This document shows positions 80-9,414 of a stretch of 21,942 nucleotides of DNA, piece after piece. The notes below the pieces were generated by a model that worked only from the letters and a program-made list of their open reading frames with translations, made no database searches and was not told the DNA's origin. Source of the DNA: a virus; the IMG/VR virus record IMGVR_UViG_3300009163_002696, positions 1-21,942 of that record; one strand, written 5' to 3'. The position numbers and the translations under genes were made by a program. Position 1 is the stretch's first letter. Every line of letters begins with the position of its first letter.

Positions 80-946
80 GTGCCCGCCGACGCTGAATTT
101 GAGCTGAAAGCCCCCGCAGTGCCTCAAAGCGCTTCGGGGCCGCGCTATGTGCGAGCTGCGCACGACTACCAGCACATCGGCATCGGGCGGCGCACCTTCT
201 TTCGCTGGAAAGACTACGGGCTCGCGCACGATGACTGGCCACCCTTCGATGATCCCGCGCAACTCGAAGCCTGGTATCTCCGCATGCGCGAGCTTGGTGC
301 CTTCAAGCACCAGTTCCCCTCCGACGTTCGCGAGGCCATCGCGGTGCATCTCGCTGGCAATCCGCCACCCTCCGCACGGTCGCCAGCGTCCAACGCTGCC
401 GCGCCGCCCTCGCCACCGCCCGCGCCATTCGGCTTAAGCTCGCCGCCTCCCGCTGTTCCCGATGAATTTCAGGGCCTTGAGCACGAACTCCACGAAAAAC
501 GCTCCCGCGTCGTCGCTCTCCGTCAAGCCCGTGACGCTGCCTATGCCTCCGGCAACCGCCCCGAGGGCGATCTCCAGGACGCCCGCTACAATGACGCCTA
601 CTCCGAGCTCACCATCGCCGAAAAGCGCACCCTGGAAGTCCTCGAAAAACGCAAGCTCCTCATCTCACGCTCCGGCATCGAGCAGGATCTCGCCCCGCGC
701 ATCACCGGCATCGTCGTCGGTGGCATGCACTTCCTCGACCGCATCGAGCCCCAGCTCGACGCCATCGTCGATCCCGCCGAGCGCCGCGCAAAGCGCCGCG
801 CCCTCTGGATCGAGCACTGCCAACCGCTCATGCAGGGAAAATTCGTCCCCGACTTCATCCGCCTCGCCCCCGTCCAGCTCTGGCAGGAATGCGCCGCCTG
901 GCTCCAAGCCAAAGCCCCGCCAACGCTCACCCTCGACGCAGCATGA
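80..946 (+). CDS. Putative terminase small subunit
   Basis: This 288-residue protein probably recognises phage DNA and hands it to the large terminase. The N-terminal part (about residues 30-47, with GRRTFFRWKDYG) looks like a helix-turn-helix of the kind found in small terminases. A Pro/Ala/Ser-rich linker follows (about 95-125). A charged helical, probably coiled-coil segment comes next (about 130-190, starting near the EFQGLEHELHEKRSR stretch), and would suit oligomer formation. The start is GTG at 80. An in-frame stop lies at 62-64, no ATG is available nearby, and GTG 80 sits exactly 13 nt after TTGACA as at other genes. Its stop overlaps the next start as ATGA (943-946), which indicates translational coupling to the large terminase. 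The call rests on position and the HTH-plus-coil layout. I do not recognise a specific family. Confidence 0.6.
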   Translation: MPADAEFELKAPAVPQSASGPRYVRAAHDYQHIGIGRRTFFRWKDYGLAHDDWPPFDDPAQLEAWYLRMRELGAFKHQFPSDVREAIAVHLAGNPPPSARSPASNAAAPPSPPPAPFGLSSPPPAVPDEFQGLEHELHEKRSRVVALRQARDAAYASGNRPEGDLQDARYNDAYSELTIAEKRTLEVLEKRKLLISRSGIEQDLAPRITGIVVGGMHFLDRIEPQLDAIVDPAERRAKRRALWIEHCQPLMQGKFVPDFIRLAPVQLWQECAAWLQAKAPPTLTLDAA

Positions 947-3162
947 TCGCCGCTGCCCCCTCTCCCAGTCTCCCCGTCTCCGAGTCTCCCCGTCTCTCAG
1001 CCGTCCCCGCCTCCTACCTCCGCACCACCCCGCTCCGCTCCTACCTCGACCGCGAACGCACCGAGGTCTCCGCGTTTCTCGATCAAATCTTTGCCACGCA
1101 CTCCCGCATTGAGATCCCGCCGCCCATTCTCGAATGGGTCCGGCAAAACGTCATGTTGGAGGCCAGCGAGTCGAAGCAATTCCCCGGCTACTACGACCCG
1201 AATCTCTCCCCCATCTGCACCATCCTCTTCGACTTCATCCAGTCCGACCACTGGCGCGAGTTCATCTGCGTGAAGCCCTCCCAAATCGGCATGACGCTCG
1301 CCTTCCTCGGCGCTTTGATGCACAAGATCAAATTCGCCCCGCGTGACGTCGCTATGGTCATCAACAACCGCGAAGAAATCCAGCGCATCGGCATCAATCG
1401 CCTCAAGCCCATGATCCACGCCTGTCAGGCCATCCGCCAGCGCATCCCGGCGGACAAAGACAAACTCCAAAACATGACGCTCTACCTCATCGGCCTCACC
1501 ATCTACCTCCTCGGTGGCAATTCCGTCGGCGGTCTCGCCAACAAATCGCTCGACTGGTGCGAGATCGACGAGTGCGACGAGACCCCCGAGGAGCTGCGCG
1601 GCGGAGAATCCACCGTCGTCGATCTCGCCCGTGATCGACTCAAGCGCCAGGACGGCTCCAAGCTCTTCGTCATCAGCAAGCCCCGCAACGAAGACGACAT
1701 CATTTACCCCGAGTTTCTGCACGGCTCCCGCCACAAGGTCTTCGTCCCCTGCCCCCATTGCCACGGCGACACCCTCCCGCCGCAGGCCAGCGACGACTCC
1801 GCCCGCCTCTTCGATCATTTGCCGCAGCCGCTCCCTCCTGGCTACCAGATCCTCGTGCGCTCCGGCCTCCGCTATCAGCACTGCCGTCGCGAAAACTCCC
1901 GCCAGTGGGATCTCCAGCGCATGCTCACCGACACGCACTACGAATGCCTCTGGTGCAAAGGCAAAATCGAGGAAAAGCACAAAGCCTGGATGCTCCGCCA
2001 TCGCCTCTACTTCCCCACCAATACCCCCGACGGCGCTCTTCAAGACGACTGCACCACCTTCCGCACCGATCGCGATCCCACCGAGACCGATCCCGACGCC
2101 GGCCATCCGCAGCCCGTCCCGCGCAAGCTCTCCTTCCAGTGCTCCGACTTCTACGCGCTCCCGCATCAGCCCGACTCCACCTTCGGCCACCTCGCCGTCG
2201 AGATTGTCACTGCCACGAATCTCTCCAAGCAGCGCAAATTCCGCCGCTCCCGCGAAGGCCTCCCCGTCCAGCGCCAGACCAGCGACAACGCACGCACCCT
2301 CGCGCAGATCCTCGCCATGCAGGGCATCCACGCACGCGGTCACTGCTCCCGCGTCCCCCGCATCGTCATCATGGGCGTGGACACGCAGCATTACGGTCGC
2401 AAATGGGTCAAAGCCGCCTTCTACGACGACGACAGCTCCGAGATCATCGACTACGGCATCGTCTTCAAAGGCTTCGACGCCCTTGTCGATGAAGCCCTCA
2501 AGCCCGTCCTCGTCGATGACTGGGCCGACACCCCCGAAGACGAGCGCATCAACCCCGTCGTCCAGATCGGACTCATCGACGAAGGCGACGGCGCTTTCAC
2601 GAAACGCGTTCTCGCCTTCTGCGCTTCGCCTGGGGCACGTCGTCTCTTCTGGCCCGCCAAAGGTCGCGGCGGCTCCCAAACCGCCAGCATGCCCGACCTC
2701 GTCACCAAGCAGGCAAAAAACATCTACGACCGCCAAAGCCTCCCCCGCTACCTCTTCAACTCCGACGCCTTCCATGAGGAGCTTTACGACGAGCGCATCG
2801 CCCGCGCCGCCGAGATCGCCACCGCCCTCGCCAATCATCTCACCCCGCCCGTCGGCCAGCTCCGCTTCTTCAAAAACCCTGACACCGATCTCTGCCTCGA
2901 ATTCACCTCCAAACGGCGCTGGACCGAAGAAGATGAAAAAGCCCGCGCCACCGCCAAGAAAAAGCCCAACACCAGCGGCCGCCGCCAAAAGCTCCTCAAA
3001 GTCGGCGACTGGTTCCGCGACGGCGGCCCCGAAGACTTCGCCGACGCCTTCATCGAATGCCTCGCCGCCTGGTATAAAGTCAAACCCCGCACCGATCAAA
3101 GTGCAACCGATGAGGATGATGACTCTCAGGCGAACGCAAAGCTCTGCGACCCTGCGCCATGA
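943..3162 (+). CDS. Phage terminase large subunit, GpA family
   Basis: This 739-residue ATP-driven DNA packaging motor and nuclease is of the lambda gpA type. The ATPase domain shows the unusual Walker A of this family, KPSQIGMT (residues 111-118), and a Walker B-like WCEIDECDE (205-213). Two CxxC pairs, CPHC (about 270-273) and CLWC (335-338), form the zinc-ribbon insertion common in GpA proteins. The RNase H-like nuclease begins at GVDTQ (Asp about 480). It continues with GLIDEG and ends with DFADAFIECLAAWYK, giving the expected acidic residues. The start is ATG 943 in the ATGA overlap with the small terminase; an upstream in-frame ATG at 889 is less likely. Residues about 7-20 (Ser/Pro/Val/Leu) are encoded by a dispersed AGTCTCC-type repeat, so the N-terminal tail looks repeat-derived. 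The length is normal for the family. Confidence 0.93.
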   Translation: MIAAAPSPSLPVSESPRLSAVPASYLRTTPLRSYLDRERTEVSAFLDQIFATHSRIEIPPPILEWVRQNVMLEASESKQFPGYYDPNLSPICTILFDFIQSDHWREFICVKPSQIGMTLAFLGALMHKIKFAPRDVAMVINNREEIQRIGINRLKPMIHACQAIRQRIPADKDKLQNMTLYLIGLTIYLLGGNSVGGLANKSLDWCEIDECDETPEELRGGESTVVDLARDRLKRQDGSKLFVISKPRNEDDIIYPEFLHGSRHKVFVPCPHCHGDTLPPQASDDSARLFDHLPQPLPPGYQILVRSGLRYQHCRRENSRQWDLQRMLTDTHYECLWCKGKIEEKHKAWMLRHRLYFPTNTPDGALQDDCTTFRTDRDPTETDPDAGHPQPVPRKLSFQCSDFYALPHQPDSTFGHLAVEIVTATNLSKQRKFRRSREGLPVQRQTSDNARTLAQILAMQGIHARGHCSRVPRIVIMGVDTQHYGRKWVKAAFYDDDSSEIIDYGIVFKGFDALVDEALKPVLVDDWADTPEDERINPVVQIGLIDEGDGAFTKRVLAFCASPGARRLFWPAKGRGGSQTASMPDLVTKQAKNIYDRQSLPRYLFNSDAFHEELYDERIARAAEIATALANHLTPPVGQLRFFKNPDTDLCLEFTSKRRWTEEDEKARATAKKKPNTSGRRQKLLKVGDWFRDGGPEDFADAFIECLAAWYKVKPRTDQSATDEDDDSQANAKLCDPAP
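961..999 (+). repeat. AGTCTCC/CCGTCTC-type dispersed repeat inside terminase start
   Basis: Here a pyrimidine-rich run of near-heptamers (agtctcc, ccgtctc, cgagtctcc) codes for the first residues of the large terminase. Related runs occur at 10587-10627, 12618-12650 and 16155-16200. It lies just after the start codon, before the conserved protein begins. Confidence 0.6.
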
Positions 3163-3209
3163 ACGCCACGACTTCACCGAGCGCGAACCCGCAGGGTTCG
3201 CAGCAGCGC

Positions 3210-3446
3210 ATGGTTAGCCGCCGGTCATTCGAGGACTGGATTGGAGGCCCGCCATACGAGCGCGACCTGTATCGCTGGCCGATGGACGAAACAAAGCACG
3301 CATGGCCCGGCCAATACAAAGACATCGCCGTGCAACTCGCATGGGAGGCGTGGTGCGAGGCGGCTAACGCAGAAGTCAGCGACGTGTGCCCGCCGATGGC
3401 GTCCGAAACAGAGAAACCGCAAACGGGCACACGTTCGCTGCACTGA
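3210..3446 (+). CDS. Small phage-type hypothetical protein (cassette ORF 1)
   Basis: This 78-residue soluble protein begins MVSRRSFEDWIGGPP and contains WPGQYKDIAVQLAWEAW. That FE-W ... PPYE ... AWPGQY ... LAWEAW pattern is familiar from small uncharacterised phage and plasmid proteins; no function is known to me. A longer in-frame start exists at ATG 3159, overlapping the large terminase stop as ATGA. I prefer ATG 3210 because the family-like part starts there and 3163-3209 holds a GCGAACCC/GGGTTCGC hairpin (3183-3201). The last residues (after about 51) and the stop are encoded by the attC-like site 3362-3456. The GTTAGCC core at 3213 follows the ATG directly. Base composition is less GC-rich than the terminase, in keeping with acquired DNA. 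Confidence 0.6.
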   Translation: MVSRRSFEDWIGGPPYERDLYRWPMDETKHAWPGQYKDIAVQLAWEAWCEAANAEVSDVCPPMASETEKPQTGTRSLH

Positions 3447-3456
3447 CTGGTTAGGC
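3362..3456 (+). other. attC-like folded recombination site 1
   Basis: The outer cores are GGCTAAC (3362-3368) and GTTAGGC (3450-3456), matching or nearly matching the integron consensus RYYYAAC ... GTTRRRY. Between them the arms 3375-3392 and 3424-3443 are inverted repeats that pair over 18 bases. They differ only by two extra bases in the 3' arm, a T and, 5 nt on, a C. The loop is about 31 nt. The ends also match the cassette rule: GGCGGCTAAC here is the exact reverse complement of GTTAGCCGCC at 3213-3222, the proposed start of the same cassette. Confidence 0.7.
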
Positions 3457-3462
3457 GCGATT

Positions 3463-3687
3463 ATGACAATCTCGAACATCATCCAACTCTCGGAAATCAT
3501 CCACCTGATACAAGGGGAAGCGCCGTGGAGTGTCGCAACGCAATCGTGGCCGGAACACTGGTCAGAACCCACGCACTCGCTGCAATGGTATATCGACGCC
3601 AACTGGCTCATCCGAAGCGGTGCGTTGATTTACGACCCGCGCCAAGCGCCTAACGGGGAGCTATGCAGCGGCGCAAACAACCAATGA
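3463..3687 (+). CDS. Hypothetical protein (cassette ORF 2)
   Basis: This 74-residue protein starts MTISNIIQLSEIIHL. It has no signal peptide, membrane segment or motif that I recognise; the middle is rich in Trp and His (PWSVATQSWPEHWSE). The ATG lies 7 nt after the GTTAGGC core of attC-like site 1, a normal distance for the first gene of an integron cassette. The stop lies within attC-like site 2. The real reading frame could extend upstream in the same phase, but no start is better placed. The function is unknown. Its position between two matched folded sites is the main reason to treat it as a real cassette gene. Confidence 0.5.
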   Translation: MTISNIIQLSEIIHLIQGEAPWSVATQSWPEHWSEPTHSLQWYIDANWLIRSGALIYDPRQAPNGELCSGANNQ

Positions 3688-3754
3688 CTATCGCATCGCC
3701 AACACACTTTTAAGCACCAGAAACCTCGCCGTCTGCATCAGCGATTGGTTCTCT
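3648..3754 (+). other. attC-like folded recombination site 2
   Basis: The cores are GCCTAAC (3648-3654) and a degenerate GTTCTCT (3748-3754). Arms at 3659-3673 and 3727-3742 pair as agct-atgcag-cggcg against its complement. Again there are exactly two extra bases in the 3' arm (T, then C six nt on). The loop is about 53 nt. GCGCCTAAC (3646-3654) is the exact complement of GTTAGGCGC at the start of this cassette (3450-3458), as expected for a gene cassette end. Confidence 0.65.
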
Positions 3755-3809
3755 GCCGGTCTTTTATCAAGACTCACTCTGCACAATCATCAACGCCGAT
3801 GCCCGCGAA

Positions 3810-4463
3810 GTGATGCACAAAATCCCGCGTGGACTCGTGGTGACTGACCCACCCTACAATGTCGGCTACCACTACGACGGCTACGATGACAAGATGGACA
3901 CGGACGAATATCAAACGATGCTCCGCGAAACCTGCCCGCTGCCGTGCGTCGTAATCCACTACGCCGAGGACTTGTGCGCGCTCGCGTGGACGCTCGAAGA
4001 AATCCCGGTGAAGATGGTCGCGTGGGTCTATCCGTCAAACACCGCTCGCCAGTGGCGCGGCATCGGATGGTGGGGCTGCAAAACTGACTTCACGAAGGAC
4101 GGTCAAGCCTACAAAAATCCGACCGACAAACGCATCGCGGGACGCATCGCCGCCGGAAAGCAATGCCGCCTGTATGACTGGTGGGAAGTGAATCAGGTCA
4201 AAAATGTCGGCGAGCAAAAGACGGAGCATCCGTGCCAGATACCCGAAGAAATCATGCGGCGAATCCTGAAAGTCACGGACTGCAAACTCGTGATAGACCC
4301 CTACGCGGGATCCGGCACGACGCTGGTGGCCGCAAAACGTCTCGGCATCCGAAGTATCGGAATCGAGCGCAACCCGAAATACTGTGAAATCTCCGCCCGC
4401 CGAGTCGCGCAAGAAATGCCGATGGTCGAGGCAGAGAACAAAGAGATCAGCGACAACGGCTAG
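3810..4463 (+). CDS. DNA methyltransferase, beta-type adenine (N6) class
   Basis: This S-adenosylmethionine-dependent DNA methyltransferase probably protects phage DNA from host restriction. The catalytic motif IV TDPPYN is at residues 12-17 counted from GTG 3810. The SAM-binding motif I DPYAGSGTT is near the C-terminus (163-171), preceded by HPCQIP (140-145), a variant of the usual HPTQKP. Motif IV before motif I marks the beta class. Target specificity cannot be read. The frame is open upstream to 3714, and from CTG 3753 it encodes LPVFYQDSLCTIINADAREV, which resembles the normal N-terminus of such enzymes. The 3810 start therefore probably drops about 19 real residues. No ATG, GTG or TTG exists there, so the true start is a rare codon or was lost at the cassette junction (3749). 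The stop codon lies in the loop of attC-like site 3. Codon use is less GC-biased than that of neighbouring phage genes. Confidence 0.9.
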   Translation: MMHKIPRGLVVTDPPYNVGYHYDGYDDKMDTDEYQTMLRETCPLPCVVIHYAEDLCALAWTLEEIPVKMVAWVYPSNTARQWRGIGWWGCKTDFTKDGQAYKNPTDKRIAGRIAAGKQCRLYDWWEVNQVKNVGEQKTEHPCQIPEEIMRRILKVTDCKLVIDPYAGSGTTLVAAKRLGIRSIGIERNPKYCEISARRVAQEMPMVEAENKEISDNG

Positions 4464-4492
4464 TCCGTTGTTCGCTGCATCGGACGTTCGCC
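4433..4492 (+). other. attC-like folded recombination site 3
   Basis: The arms are 4445-4459 and 4465-4481, with a 5-nt loop that contains the methyltransferase stop TAG. They pair as gat-cagcg-acaacgg against its complement, with an extra T and, 5 nt on, an extra C in the 3' arm, exactly as at sites 1 and 2. The outer cores are degenerate (AGAGAAC and GTTCGCC). However, GGCAGAGAAC (4430-4439) is the perfect complement of GTTCTCTGCC (3748-3757), the other end of the methyltransferase cassette. Confidence 0.65.
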
Positions 4493-4520
4493 GCCGAATT
4501 GACATCCGCCGCCATCACAC

Positions 4521-4823
4521 ATGGCGGACACCTCACATCGCAATCGCTGGCTCCTGAACGCCGAAGACGCCTGCGGCGTCGATCAGACCGCCGCGCAGAT
4601 CATCTGGCTCCGCGCCAAACGCGCCGAATACGCCACCCTCGTCGATGCGGGCGACTGGGAAACCCAAAGCGCCAGCGGCGAAGCCGGTTCCTCCAGCTCA
4701 CGTCGCGGCGTGTCCGACCAGGCCAATCACGACGCCATCATGGCCGCGCTGCGCTACCTCGGAGCCACCGACATCGGCGGCGGCGGCATCCTCACGCCTC
4801 AATTCAGCGGCATCCTCACCTAA
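4521..4823 (+). CDS. Small protein in head-tail joining (gpW) position
   Basis: This 100-residue soluble protein lies directly before the portal gene. Lambda places gpW, a head-completion protein, in the same spot between terminase and portal. I do not see clear gpW sequence features, so the assignment is positional only. The N-terminal half (about 10-45) is predicted helical (AEDACGVDQTAAQIIWLRAKRAEYATL). It is followed by a Ser/Gly-rich link and a Gly-rich end (GGGGILTPQFSGILT). ATG 4521 is 16 nt downstream of TTGACA (4499-4504). Its stop overlaps the portal start as TAATG (4821-4825), so it is translationally coupled to portal. Confidence 0.65.
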   Translation: MADTSHRNRWLLNAEDACGVDQTAAQIIWLRAKRAEYATLVDAGDWETQSASGEAGSSSSRRGVSDQANHDAIMAALRYLGATDIGGGGILTPQFSGILT

Positions 4824-6445
4824 TGAACGCTTTCACCCGTCTACGCGCCGCCGTCGCCGCCTTCCGCGCCCCGGTAAACACCGCTGGCCTCACCTCTGAC
4901 GCGAACACGCCCCAAATCACGCCCTGGGGCACCGGCGCAGGTCGCGGGAGCGATCCCACCATGCCCGTCCGCAGCTTGCAGGACATGCGCCCCGTCGAGC
5001 GCCGCACCTCCATCACGCGATCCCGTTTCATCGCCAATCGCCTCGGCCTCGGACGTGCCATGATCGAAGGCTCCACCCGCTACGCCATCAACGAAGGCAT
5101 CATCGGCTTCGCTTCCACGGGCGACAAAGAATTCGACGACTCCTGCAATCGCGTGTGCGATGAAATCTTCGAGGGCACCGAGGAAAAGTCCTGCGATGTC
5201 GCGGGCAATTTGAACTGGTATGAGCAGCAGGAAGTCATTTGCCCCGCCATGATGACCGACGGCGACTGCGGCATCGCCAAAGTCCTCACTCGCGATGCCA
5301 ATGGCCGCATCCCCATCACCTCACGTCCGCAGTTCCAGCTCTTCGCCACCGAGCAGATCAGCGACGGCTCCGCCTACGCCTTCCCCGCCATGAACGCCAC
5401 CGGCCCGCAGTGGCGTGAAGGCGTGCTTCGCGATGAATATGGCCGCGTCCTCAAATACCGCGTCGAGCAGGAGACCGCCCCCGGCTATCCCACCTCACCG
5501 CTCGGCTGGCGCAACAACGCCTTCACCGAATTCGACGCCCGCGACTTCATGCTCGTCCTCGATCCCAAGCGCATCGGCCTCGGTCGCGGCATCCCGTGGA
5601 CACATCACGCGCAAGAGTCATCCATCACGATGATGGACCTCAAAAAACTCGAAGAATCCGCCGCCTACCTCAACGCCTTCTTCGGTGCCGTCATCACCAC
5701 GCCCGACGGTGAAGTCCCCGAAGGCTTCGAGGCCGAAGTCTTCAAGAATCGCAACACCAAAACCACCCAGAAACGCAGCAGCGGCGAAGCCGAAACTGAA
5801 GTGATGCGCAAATACGCCAACTTCATGGGCGGCGCACTCATCCCCGTCCTCAAAGAAGGCGAGAAGCTCGAAATGGTCAAAAGCGAGCGCCCTTCCCTCA
5901 CCTTCACCGGCTTCATGGACTGGCTCGTCAACGACATCGCCTGGGGCTTCGGCATCCCGCCCTCGTATGTGTGGGCCATCGCCGGTCGCAGCGGTCCTGA
6001 GACCCGCATGACACTTCAGCAGGCGCAGTGGTTCTTCAAATTCATCATGCGCCGCATGATCGCCCGCTTCTGCAAGCCCTCCCGCGACTTCGTCATCAAG
6101 TGGGGCCTGCTCACCGGCCGCATCAACAACGGCCGCCCGCCGCGCAACGGTGCCTCCCCCTTCCTCTGCCGCTGGCGCGGTCCGCGCAACATCACCATCG
6201 ACGAACGTTATTTCTTCAAGACCTGGCTTGATCGGCTCGACAAAGGACTCGGCACCGAAGAGGAATTCTACGCCGAACTCGGCCTCGAAGCCTCCGACAT
6301 CCGCCGCACTCGCGTCGATGAAGTCGCTGACTGGCTCGAACTCTGCAAAAAGAGCGGCGTCCCCTACGAGCTCGTTCGCGCTTCCACTCCCGGCAGCACC
6401 CCCGGCGTCACCGCTCAAGAATTGGCCGACGCGATGCAGAACTAG
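4823..6445 (+). CDS. Phage portal protein, lambda family
   Basis: This 540-residue protein should form the dodecameric ring at the head vertex through which DNA enters and leaves, and to which terminase docks. The sequence fits the lambda gpB-type portals. There is an N-terminal TPW-like segment (ITPWGTG) and a conserved RSRFIANRLGLGRAMIEGS region. Central strands include FQLFATEQISDG. A C-terminal core carries SLTFTGFMDWLVNDIAWGFGIPPSYVW and SGPETRMTLQQAQWFFKFIMRRM, the usual signature helices near the end. The start at ATG 4823 is fixed by the TAATG junction; the open frame extends upstream, but that part is out of phase with the coding gene before it. A perfect palindrome and a GC-rich hairpin follow the stop. 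Confidence 0.9.
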   Translation: MNAFTRLRAAVAAFRAPVNTAGLTSDANTPQITPWGTGAGRGSDPTMPVRSLQDMRPVERRTSITRSRFIANRLGLGRAMIEGSTRYAINEGIIGFASTGDKEFDDSCNRVCDEIFEGTEEKSCDVAGNLNWYEQQEVICPAMMTDGDCGIAKVLTRDANGRIPITSRPQFQLFATEQISDGSAYAFPAMNATGPQWREGVLRDEYGRVLKYRVEQETAPGYPTSPLGWRNNAFTEFDARDFMLVLDPKRIGLGRGIPWTHHAQESSITMMDLKKLEESAAYLNAFFGAVITTPDGEVPEGFEAEVFKNRNTKTTQKRSSGEAETEVMRKYANFMGGALIPVLKEGEKLEMVKSERPSLTFTGFMDWLVNDIAWGFGIPPSYVWAIAGRSGPETRMTLQQAQWFFKFIMRRMIARFCKPSRDFVIKWGLLTGRINNGRPPRNGASPFLCRWRGPRNITIDERYFFKTWLDRLDKGLGTEEEFYAELGLEASDIRRTRVDEVADWLELCKKSGVPYELVRASTPGSTPGVTAQELADAMQN

Positions 6446-7723: not shown

Positions 7724-7763
7724 CCAAACACCACCCCACATTCACTTTTAAGCACCCAAATAT

Positions 7764-8924
7764 ATGGCTAATACTCTCACCAATCTGATCCCCGACTTCT
7801 ACGCCGCGCTCGACGTGGTTTCTCGCGAACTCACCGGCTTTATTCCCGCCGTCCAGCGTGATCCCCGCGCCGACCGCTGCGCTCTGAACGCCACGATGCG
7901 CTCCATCGTTGCACCGGCCAACGCTGCCGCTGGCAACGTCACGCCTGCCATGTCGCTCCCATCCGCCGCCGATCAGACCATCGGCAGCAAGACCTTCACC
8001 ATTCAAAAATCCCGCTTCGCGCCGTTTTCTTGGACTGGTGAAGAGCAGGGCAACGTGAACGGTGGTCCCGGCTACCTCACCATCAAGCAGGACCAGATCG
8101 CGCAAGCCATCCGTGCCCTGGTGAATGAGATCGAAGTCGATTGCGCCACCTACGGCTACCTCGGTGCATCCCGCGCCTTCGGTGCCACCGCTGGCACCGC
8201 ACCCGTGCTCGCTGACTTTGCGCAGGCAAAGAAAATCCTCGACGACAACGGCGCTCCTTCCTCTGACCGCCATGCCGTCATCGACACCACCGCAGGCGTC
8301 GCTCTTCGCGGCACCAGCAACCTCTTCAAGGTCAACGAGGCCGGAGAAAGCACCCTCCTGCGTCAGGGCATGCTCGGCAACCTCTACGGCATAGACATCC
8401 GCGAATCCGCGCAGATCCAGACGCCGACAGCGGGTGCCATGGCCTCCGCCACCTCCACCAGCGCCGCCTTCACCGTCGGTCAGACCGTGATCCCGCTGGC
8501 AACCGCTGGCACCGGAGTCGTCGCCGCCGGTGACATCGTCACCTTCGCCAACGACACGAACAAATACGTCGTCGCCAGCGTCTCCTTCGCCGGTGCCAAC
8601 CCTGCCTCGGGCGACAGCATCACGCTCGCCGCTCCCGGCCTGCGCAAGGCTCAAGGCGTCGCCACCCGTGCGATCACCGTGTTCGCCACCAGCGCTCGCA
8701 ACCTCGTCTTCACCCGCAACGCCATCCTCCTCGGCACCCGCCTCCCCGCGCTGCCGATGGAAGGCGACATCGCCACCGACCGCGAGACCATCGTCGATCC
8801 CCGCACCGGCCTCGCCTTCGAGGTCGCCTGCTACCCAGGCTTCCGCATGGTCACCTACCATGTGTCCATAGCTTGGGGTGTCGCCGTCATGAAACCCGAG
8901 CACCTCGCCACGATCATCGGTTAA
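7764..8924 (+). CDS. Major capsid (coat) protein, P22 gp5-like
   Basis: This 386-residue HK97-fold shell protein follows the protease and ends at a strong terminator, both typical for coat genes. The N-terminus (NTLTNLIPDFYAALDVVSRELTGFIPAVQRD) and helix YLTIKQDQIAQAIRALVNEIEVD match the layout of P22-type coat proteins. An inserted beta-rich domain lies at about residues 225-295 (VAAGDIVTFANDTNKYVV ... GDSITLAAPG) and corresponds to the P22 insertion domain. The end (SARNLVFTRNAILLGTRLPALP and MVTYHVSIAWGVAVMKPEHLATI) also fits. ATG 7764 follows a 40-nt gap with no Shine-Dalgarno site and no TTGACA. No cleavage site is obvious, and whether the protease acts on this protein is not visible. 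Confidence 0.88.
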   Translation: MANTLTNLIPDFYAALDVVSRELTGFIPAVQRDPRADRCALNATMRSIVAPANAAAGNVTPAMSLPSAADQTIGSKTFTIQKSRFAPFSWTGEEQGNVNGGPGYLTIKQDQIAQAIRALVNEIEVDCATYGYLGASRAFGATAGTAPVLADFAQAKKILDDNGAPSSDRHAVIDTTAGVALRGTSNLFKVNEAGESTLLRQGMLGNLYGIDIRESAQIQTPTAGAMASATSTSAAFTVGQTVIPLATAGTGVVAAGDIVTFANDTNKYVVASVSFAGANPASGDSITLAAPGLRKAQGVATRAITVFATSARNLVFTRNAILLGTRLPALPMEGDIATDRETIVDPRTGLAFEVACYPGFRMVTYHVSIAWGVAVMKPEHLATIIG

Positions 8925-8962
8925 AAATCACCGGGATTCATCACCCGGCTGTTCATGCGCCA

Positions 8963-9001
8963 GCGCCGTGTCCTTTTGGTTGGGGGACACGGCGCTTTTT
9001 T
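8963..9001 (+). terminator. Rho-independent terminator after coat gene
   Basis: An 11-bp stem, GCGCCGTGTCC (8963-8973) with GGACACGGCGC (8985-8995), has an 11-nt loop and is followed by six T (8996-9001). This is a textbook intrinsic terminator 38 nt after the coat stop. It would cap the high-level coat transcript. Confidence 0.9.
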
Positions 9002-9003
9002 GT

Positions 9004-9056
9004 CCCTCCGTTTTCTCCGTTCTCTCCTGTTCAAAGAATTCCGGGCAGGATTGACA
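9004..9056 (+). promoter_or_regulatory. Composite repeat leader with TTGACA
   Basis: A CTCCGTTTTCTCCGTT/CTCTCCTGTTC repeat is followed by AAAGAATTCCGGGC and TTGACA (9051-9056), again 13 nt before ATG 9070. It directly follows the coat terminator, so transcription of the connector genes must restart or read through here. Confidence 0.5.
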
Positions 9057-9069
9057 TCACCGCCTCCAC

Positions 9070-9414
9070 ATGCCCGCCTTCGCTCCACGCACCGCCATCC
9101 TCGCCGAGCGCACACGCGGGCAGGATGCCCGTGACGCGCACTACCTCGGCAGCGTCAAGATCGGCGCCACCACCTACGCCTGCGAGCTGTTCGTCGCGGG
9201 CAACAAGATCGAGCAGCATGCCGACGGCTCCGGCTTCGCCCACGTTCAGCGCATCACGGCCAAGATCCGCAAGACCCTTCTCAAGCTCGCGCCACCGCGT
9301 GACACCGTGCTCGTCATCGATGGCACGCAGTTCACGCTCGATCACGTCGATGGCCAGTCCGGCCACGAACCCGCCTGGGTCATCCACGCCATGCGCTTGC
9401 CACCCGCTCCCTAA
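9070..9414 (+). CDS. Putative head-tail connector protein
   Basis: This 114-residue beta-rich protein has no signal peptide or membrane segment. The end, RDTVLVIDGTQFTLDHVDGQS ... AWVIHAMRLPP, resembles the small beta-barrel head-tail joining proteins (lambda gpFII-like fold) in which a dGttftv...G pattern is common. Placement directly after the coat gene and before a tail-completion candidate supports a connector role. I cannot identify the family with certainty. The start is supported by TTGACA 13 nt upstream. Six bases separate its stop from the next ATG. Confidence 0.55.
   Translation: MPAFAPRTAILAERTRGQDARDAHYLGSVKIGATTYACELFVAGNKIEQHADGSGFAHVQRITAKIRKTLLKLAPPRDTVLVIDGTQFTLDHVDGQSGHEPAWVIHAMRLPPAP

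Follow-up and report, generated by a model that had tools for sequence, protein, structure and literature searches.

How did a set of gene cassettes come to lie within the late-gene operon of a phage, and where does the inserted DNA begin and end? The window (the whole stretch analysed, a 21,942-base virus record) carries a late-gene operon with TerL, joining, portal, protease, capsid and tail genes, and the array is positioned between the terminase and the portal-side genes. TerL, the large terminase (GpA/TerL; 889-3162, + strand), was recognised by Pfam GpA_ATPase (E 3.8e-26) and GpA_nuclease (E 1.3e-9). Downstream of the array lie a gpW-like head-tail joining gene (4521-4823, +), named by position only, 56-71% conserved in all relatives and without a match in a Pfam scan, and the portal gene (4823-6445, +; Phage_portal_2, E 6.8e-36). 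A TTGACA motif (4499-4504, +) precedes the joining gene. TTGACA(C/T) occurs ten times on the + strand and once on the - strand of the window (including 61, 4499, 6553, 9051 and 21665), often 17-22 bases 5' of a start codon; the strand bias is the same in the related phages V2, V4 and V7, and the motif looks like a phage-wide gene-start motif.

All phages compared are metagenome contigs, except the sister prophages. V2, V4 and V7 are contigs of loci L002, L004 and L007 (records G070, G072 and G074), rotated so that the late genes read on the + strand; L237, L241, L242 and L229 were likewise turned. Gene junctions are named by the start coordinates of window ORFs (g12315, g13266 and g18716). V2 and L003, which come from different metagenomes, carry the same array, which argues against an assembly error.

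The cassette array in the window is real and contains four co-oriented attCs. A sequence-only reading had named three sites (3362-3456, 3648-3754 and 4433-4492), each with long, imperfectly paired arms, one of which has two extra bases; these are indeed attCs. Scanning for paired arms bounded by AAC...GTT boxes added a fourth, attC1 (3129-3219, -), which overlaps the TerL stop codon and encodes the last codons of TerL (QANAKLCDPAP). The array, placed by the same reading from 3213 onwards, thus begins inside TerL at 3129. All four sites have a perfect 12-bp stem starting at base 13 and broken on the 3' arm (+ strand) by two extra bases, a T and then a C six pairs further out (T-N6-C). Among 4000 random phage windows of 95 nt, 11 contained such a stem even with one mismatch tolerated. 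IntI1 works best on sites whose folded bottom strand has the T-N6-C or T-N6-G architecture (PMC3053210).

We scored all positions of the window with R2, an attC model made from sites adjoining Verrucomicrobiaceae intI genes, with no phage sequence and with the structure set by hand. R2 found three of the four sites: attC1 (match 3134-3214, 28.5 bits, E 8e-6), attC2 (3362-3456, -; match 3373-3449, 23.3 bits, E 1.9e-4) and attC4 (4433-4492, -; E 1.1e-7). The next match (E 0.16) was noise, and the best match in 691 kb of control viral DNA had an E of 0.11. An Rfam search returned no matching attC family. DNA folding of the + strand gave strong support to attC2 (z -5.0) and attC4 (z -3.7) and moderate support to attC1 (z -2.1). 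The weakest of the four is attC3 (3648-3754, -), which has a long loop, received no R2 score and folded no better than shuffles (z +0.2); its support therefore comes from a perfect T-N6-C stem in the same register and from box pairing at 4/4 positions on both sides, not from folding energy. Taken together, the array has the structured attCs of integron cassettes and CALINs, with T-N6-C in all four sites, an R2 match in three and clear folding in two to three.

The sequence-only reading had pointed to inverted cassette ends, and these proved exact (3213-3222 with 3359-3368, 3450-3458 with 3646-3654, and 3748-3757 with 4430-4439). In cassettes 1 (3135-3367, -, 233 bp), 2 (3368-3653, -, 286 bp) and 3 (3654-4438, -, 785 bp), the cassette's own ends are complementary at 4/4 variable positions each, or at 10/10 in cassette 3 when neighbouring positions are counted. 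Using R2 and pattern scans, we located arrays in related phages and tested 16 cassettes from 10 arrays. Out of 64 variable positions, 59 showed complementarity between a cassette's start box and its own far box, versus 31.9 by random re-pairing (p about 1e-5); the two boxes within the same site matched at 2.0/4, and host integron cassettes (start box versus own far box) at 3.94/4. Judged from sequence, this exchange of start and far boxes is the trace of circular cassettes, in agreement with the original view of an integron-type array formed by circular-cassette recombination. Pairing of the acceptor boxes over the arrays was weaker (31/40, p 0.12), which may reflect box decay or a more involved history in some arrays. 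The end exchange is silent on orientation, because both strands predict the same pairs.

Orientation was read from the extra bases and from the host arrays. On the phage + strand, extra bases were distributed between the 3' arm and the other arm at 32:10; on the ORF-sense strand of host integrons, they favoured the 5' arm over the other arm at 47:20. In host arrays with a divergent intI, the ORFs run away from intI, along their attCs. From the asymmetry of the extra bases in phage and host, the phage attCs face the minus strand; the + strand is then the bottom strand used by IntI, and the cut on + falls at AA|C in the left box. The breakpoints would then lie at 3134/3135 and 4438/4439, and the predicted insert is 3135-4438, comprising three cassettes.

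Relatives lacking the array exist, as had been anticipated, and pairs of empty and filled sites show the breakpoints. L229 (empty) has a lone site, ...GCAGCGTAAGCCGAAC|AAAGAGCTC...; V7 (filled) has the left flank of L229 up to GCCGAAC, a cassette, GAAC|AAAGAGCTC, and then the right flank of L229. Comparison of V2 (empty) with L237 (filled) revealed an insertion at GAAC of the left box, with both flanks in common; since the gene junctions differ, the flanks seem to have travelled along with the site. In L241 and L243, which have different cassettes, the 5 kb downstream are 96% identical, and this identity begins at the left box of a shared short docking site. Both sides of the cut share GAAC, so sequence places it only within four bases, and AA|C is the integron rule. 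A breakpoint search by alignment score against the empty TerL-gpW junction of V4 did not tell the AA|C and G|TT models apart, that junction being too diverged.

The right-hand site of every array is a short attC of 60-66 bp with the near-constant sequence AACAAAGAGCTCRCCGA...TCGGYGCAGCGGACGTTCG. By its sequence, the acceptor in the window is the right-hand site attC4, a member of this conserved phage attC family (58-66 bp), here called docking attCs. A model, R3, built from 16 docking sites of other phages matched 4433-4492 at 52.3 bits (E 7e-13). The site attC1 belongs to cassette 1, and its left box, GGCGAAC, which falls within the final TerL codons, complements the far box GTTCGCC (4486-4492) exactly. 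The GGCGAA of this left box (3129-3134) is the displaced docking-site tail. In an alignment of 16 copies from other phages, 32 columns were invariant and the stem was kept in 98.6% of cells; covariation support is modest, with a two-sided change at a single pair in five sequences and hardly any variation elsewhere. In alignment A4 of the docking attCs, columns 13-18 and 25-30 (GCTCRC with GYGAGC) may form a second, mutually exclusive hairpin, whose R/Y pair changes along with the attC stem; it is possibly a switch or a terminator.

Docking attCs occur, empty or filled, at several late-gene junctions, and the same junctions are used in different phages: between TerL and the joining gene (the window, V2/L003 and L005), at g12315/g13266 (V2, V4 and a distant prophage in G007) and before g18716 (V2, V7 and L229). 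In L005, an empty docking site also lies directly 3' of the portal stop. In most lone copies (L005 after portal, L229, L233 and V2 at 24448), the boxes complement each other fully, as those of an empty site should. The TerL stop codon of V4 lies inside a degraded docking copy (28/33 matches, versus at most 22 in shuffles), a remnant which indicates that docking at the TerL end is of long standing in this lineage. No docking site was found at the TerL end in the relatives L001, L007 and L008. L001 is a close relative (TerL 94%) with a 2.4-kb insert (950-3441) that carries a methyltransferase near the TerL start; no attC was detectable in this insert, and the TerL-gpW junction of L001 is empty.

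Outside prophages, the docking family appears rare in bacterial genomes. Strong R3 matches in 67 Verrucomicrobiaceae genomes were confined to the sister prophage and contigs with phage-like genes. The docking consensus was seen in one prophage in 68 genomes of the family, with candidate matches in two further genomes among 388 of the phylum, and in none of the sampled host integrons. A loose docking pattern gave mostly chance matches; the longer pattern was specific. A docking-type attC (E 4.6e-12) also lies around 9605 of L265 (G001:C5), in a second, different phage-like region of the host metagenome-assembled genome (MAG).

The cassettes of the window encode three ORFs on the + strand. The cassette 1 ORF (3159-3446, 95 aa) starts in the attC1 loop and ends in attC2, and the small cassette 2 ORF encodes 74 aa (3463-3687); both are of unknown function, the former without a Pfam or NCBIfam match and the latter without a match in a family scan of its translation. 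Cassette 3 encodes the DNA methyltransferase proposed earlier (3753-4463; Pfam PF01555, N6_N4_Mtase, E 2.8e-25; PHROG DNA methyltransferase, E 7.6e-37). It is a beta-class N4/N6 enzyme (PF01555 at 90 bits against a cutoff of 26.7) with DPPY and DPYAGSGTT motifs, the latter conforming to DPxxGSGTT. The first in-frame ATG/GTG/TTG is at 3810, conserved-looking residues begin near 3753, and an ATG at 3684 is followed by an in-frame stop at 3711; the start is either non-canonical or damaged. No clear source of the gene was identified: the best matches were about 40% (C-terminal half) in Verrucomicrobiaceae genomes and 38% in phages, with none clear in plasmids. Other docking sites have an N6_N4_Mtase (L242, E 6e-19) and a Dam methyltransferase (L243, E 1.4e-14). 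Three different methyltransferases were thus present among the phage arrays examined, and the remaining cassettes encode small proteins of unknown function. V4 and L237 have a 351-base cassette stretch in common, with 94% identity, at different junctions. The best ORFs of the phage cassettes, three with Pfam support, are on the late-gene strand, against their own attCs, and several extend from the loop of one attC into the following attC. The methyltransferase of the window might play an anti-restriction role.

The host group was traced via a sister prophage (TerL 88% identical) in a Verrucomicrobiaceae MAG. The sequence-only reading had suggested looking for an integron integrase in the host, and this MAG encodes two above the curated cutoff; in total, 24 of 68 Verrucomicrobiaceae genomes have at least one above the cutoff. 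On the window contig, which is partial, neither an integron integrase nor any Phage_integrase-family protein was found. The window thus does not have the intI gene and attI site of a complete integron; with four co-oriented attCs and no nearby intI on the incomplete contig, it corresponds to a CALIN (at least two such sites). V2, V4 and V7 encode tyrosine recombinases that score 22-28 bits, below the IntI cutoff of 265, and are thus not IntI. Near the intact intI of the host MAG (L138, 7753-10694), there is a broken intI copy (8132-9143) with an inverted-repeat hairpin of about 62 bases on either side (at 7753 and 10633); the two hairpins are nearly identical. Adjoining a host integron, L171 contains a 151-base palindrome in two direct copies (595-929).

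We consider it very probable that a docking attC at the 3' end of the terminase gene took up the three cassettes through a trans-acting integron integrase cutting at AA|C. The resident site (4433-4492) would have been one of several lying antisense to the late genes, and the integrase would have been supplied in trans, most likely from an integron of the Verrucomicrobia host. IntI would fold the + (bottom) strand of the docking site and join circular cassettes to it at AA|C, most likely acting on folded docking DNA during phage replication or lysogeny. Insertion of 3135-3367, 3368-3653 and 3654-4438 would have displaced the outer box GGCGAA to 3129-3134 within TerL, and would have supplied TerL with a different C-terminal tail. 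Captured genes are co-directional with the late operon, from which they would be read, since each ORF runs antisense to its own attC and the docking sites are themselves antisense to the late genes.

Three other explanations were weighed against uptake at a docking site. The array may be an ordinary phage CALIN, a fragment of a host integron carried in by chance through homologous or illegitimate recombination, with no docking site involved. Phage CALINs are already known (PMC9892861), and the long attCs of the array resemble those of the host; we nevertheless regard this as unlikely, since one and the same short attC, empty or filled, is found at several junctions in many phages and invariably closes the array on the right, the filled/empty pairs are clean at the recombination point, and the cassette ORFs have the opposite orientation to those of host cassettes. 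It is far less probable still that the hairpins are transcription terminators, or a non-recombining intergenic repeat of the phage, with gene content varying by ordinary mosaicism. The sites do form hairpins at gene 3' ends, and the docking family has its second possible hairpin; against this, a cassette start corresponds to its own far site at 59/64 positions, the sites have the T-N6-C architecture with insertion at AA|C, and they match R2, a model built only from intI-linked sites.

A different geometry, with attCs on the + strand, cuts at G|TT, an insert of 3214-4486 and the first attC, at the TerL end, as acceptor, is already contradicted and retains very little probability. The complementary box pairs are identical in both orientations, and the R''/R' consensus is satisfied either way. 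The extra-base asymmetry and the orientation of the host integrons speak against it, as do the breakpoints in L229/V7, V2/L237 and L241/L243. The sequence-only reading had placed the cuts at G|TT and expected an empty site to result from removal of 3214-4486, with breakpoints away from the GTT cores counting against its proposal. The breakpoints in relatives do lie elsewhere; together with the asymmetry and the host orientation, they give AA|C and 3135-4438, and the G|TT geometry was given up. The TerL-end site as a + strand acceptor, tried as a candidate, was overturned by the constant short site on the right and by the host orientation.

A broader proposal reaches beyond uptake at this one docking site. 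We tentatively suggest, at somewhat less than even probability, that this Verrucomicrobia phage clade forms a distributed, integrase-less integron, with a number of conserved docking attCs lying antisense within the late operon, a pool of cassettes with inverted ORFs, and movement by host IntI. The inverted ORFs would allow co-transcription with the late genes and mark a phage-adapted pool; cassettes would move between phages and junctions, as the 94% identical cassette of V4 and L237 may illustrate; and phages may be vehicles or even sources of new cassettes.

The bacterial counterparts closest at hand are the chromosomal integrons of Verrucomicrobiaceae, which likewise have T-N6-C bulges on the bottom strand, AAC/GTT boxes and exchange of box ends. 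In those integrons the ORFs run with the attC, whereas in the phages they run against it, and the short docking consensus, present in the phages, was not seen in the host arrays. Alignment of the ORF along its attC is a usual, not strictly defining, trait of cassettes, and the phage cassettes lack it. Reverse cassettes are known but uncommon; the inverted ORFs therefore weaken the description as typical cassettes, not the case for attC recombination. Attachment to attG sites, the non-classical insertion sites of integrons, resembles the present case in that cassettes are inserted outside an integron platform; attG, as generally described, is a bare double-stranded core, whereas the acceptor here is a full structured attC.

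The sequence-only reading went too far in taking cassettes in phages as undescribed. Qi et al. 2023 (PMC9892861), in the parts covered here, report 17 phage CALINs, some with DNA methyltransferases, and a prophage CALIN that has terminase, scaffold and tail genes on its flanks; IntI1 recombined five of six phage attCs tested there. Cassettes in a phage are thus not new, and the present arrays resemble those CALINs in having attC clusters without an integrase and methyltransferase cargo. They differ, as far as those CALINs are described there, in the conserved resident docking attC at repeated late-gene junctions. The parts covered describe neither filled/empty pairs nor an inverted ORF-to-attC orientation, both found here, and the term Verrucomicrobia is absent from them, whereas our phages are Verrucomicrobia phages. 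The arrays are also like the CALINs of IntegronFinder (PMC9024848) in being attC clusters without intI, yet many phage sites are single and empty, and the default two-attC threshold would not report them. In the open-access literature searched, no account was found of filled/empty pairs, of inverted phage cassettes or of conserved attCs residing at fixed late-gene junctions. The conserved multi-junction docking sites and the inverted cassettes look new.

Integrons are regarded as platforms for gene capture in bacteria, carried by plasmids and transposons. Conserved attCs at fixed junctions of a structural operon would give phage genomes a permanent point of exchange with the cassette pool of the host. 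A requirement for two attCs in searches would miss most of the empty sites. The natural filled/empty pairs make it possible to examine attC x attC insertion, and the system lends itself to tests of ideas on how cassettes arise and are disseminated. The docking sites suggest a route by which phages gain modification genes, and the phage seems able to swap useful genes using a host recombinase.
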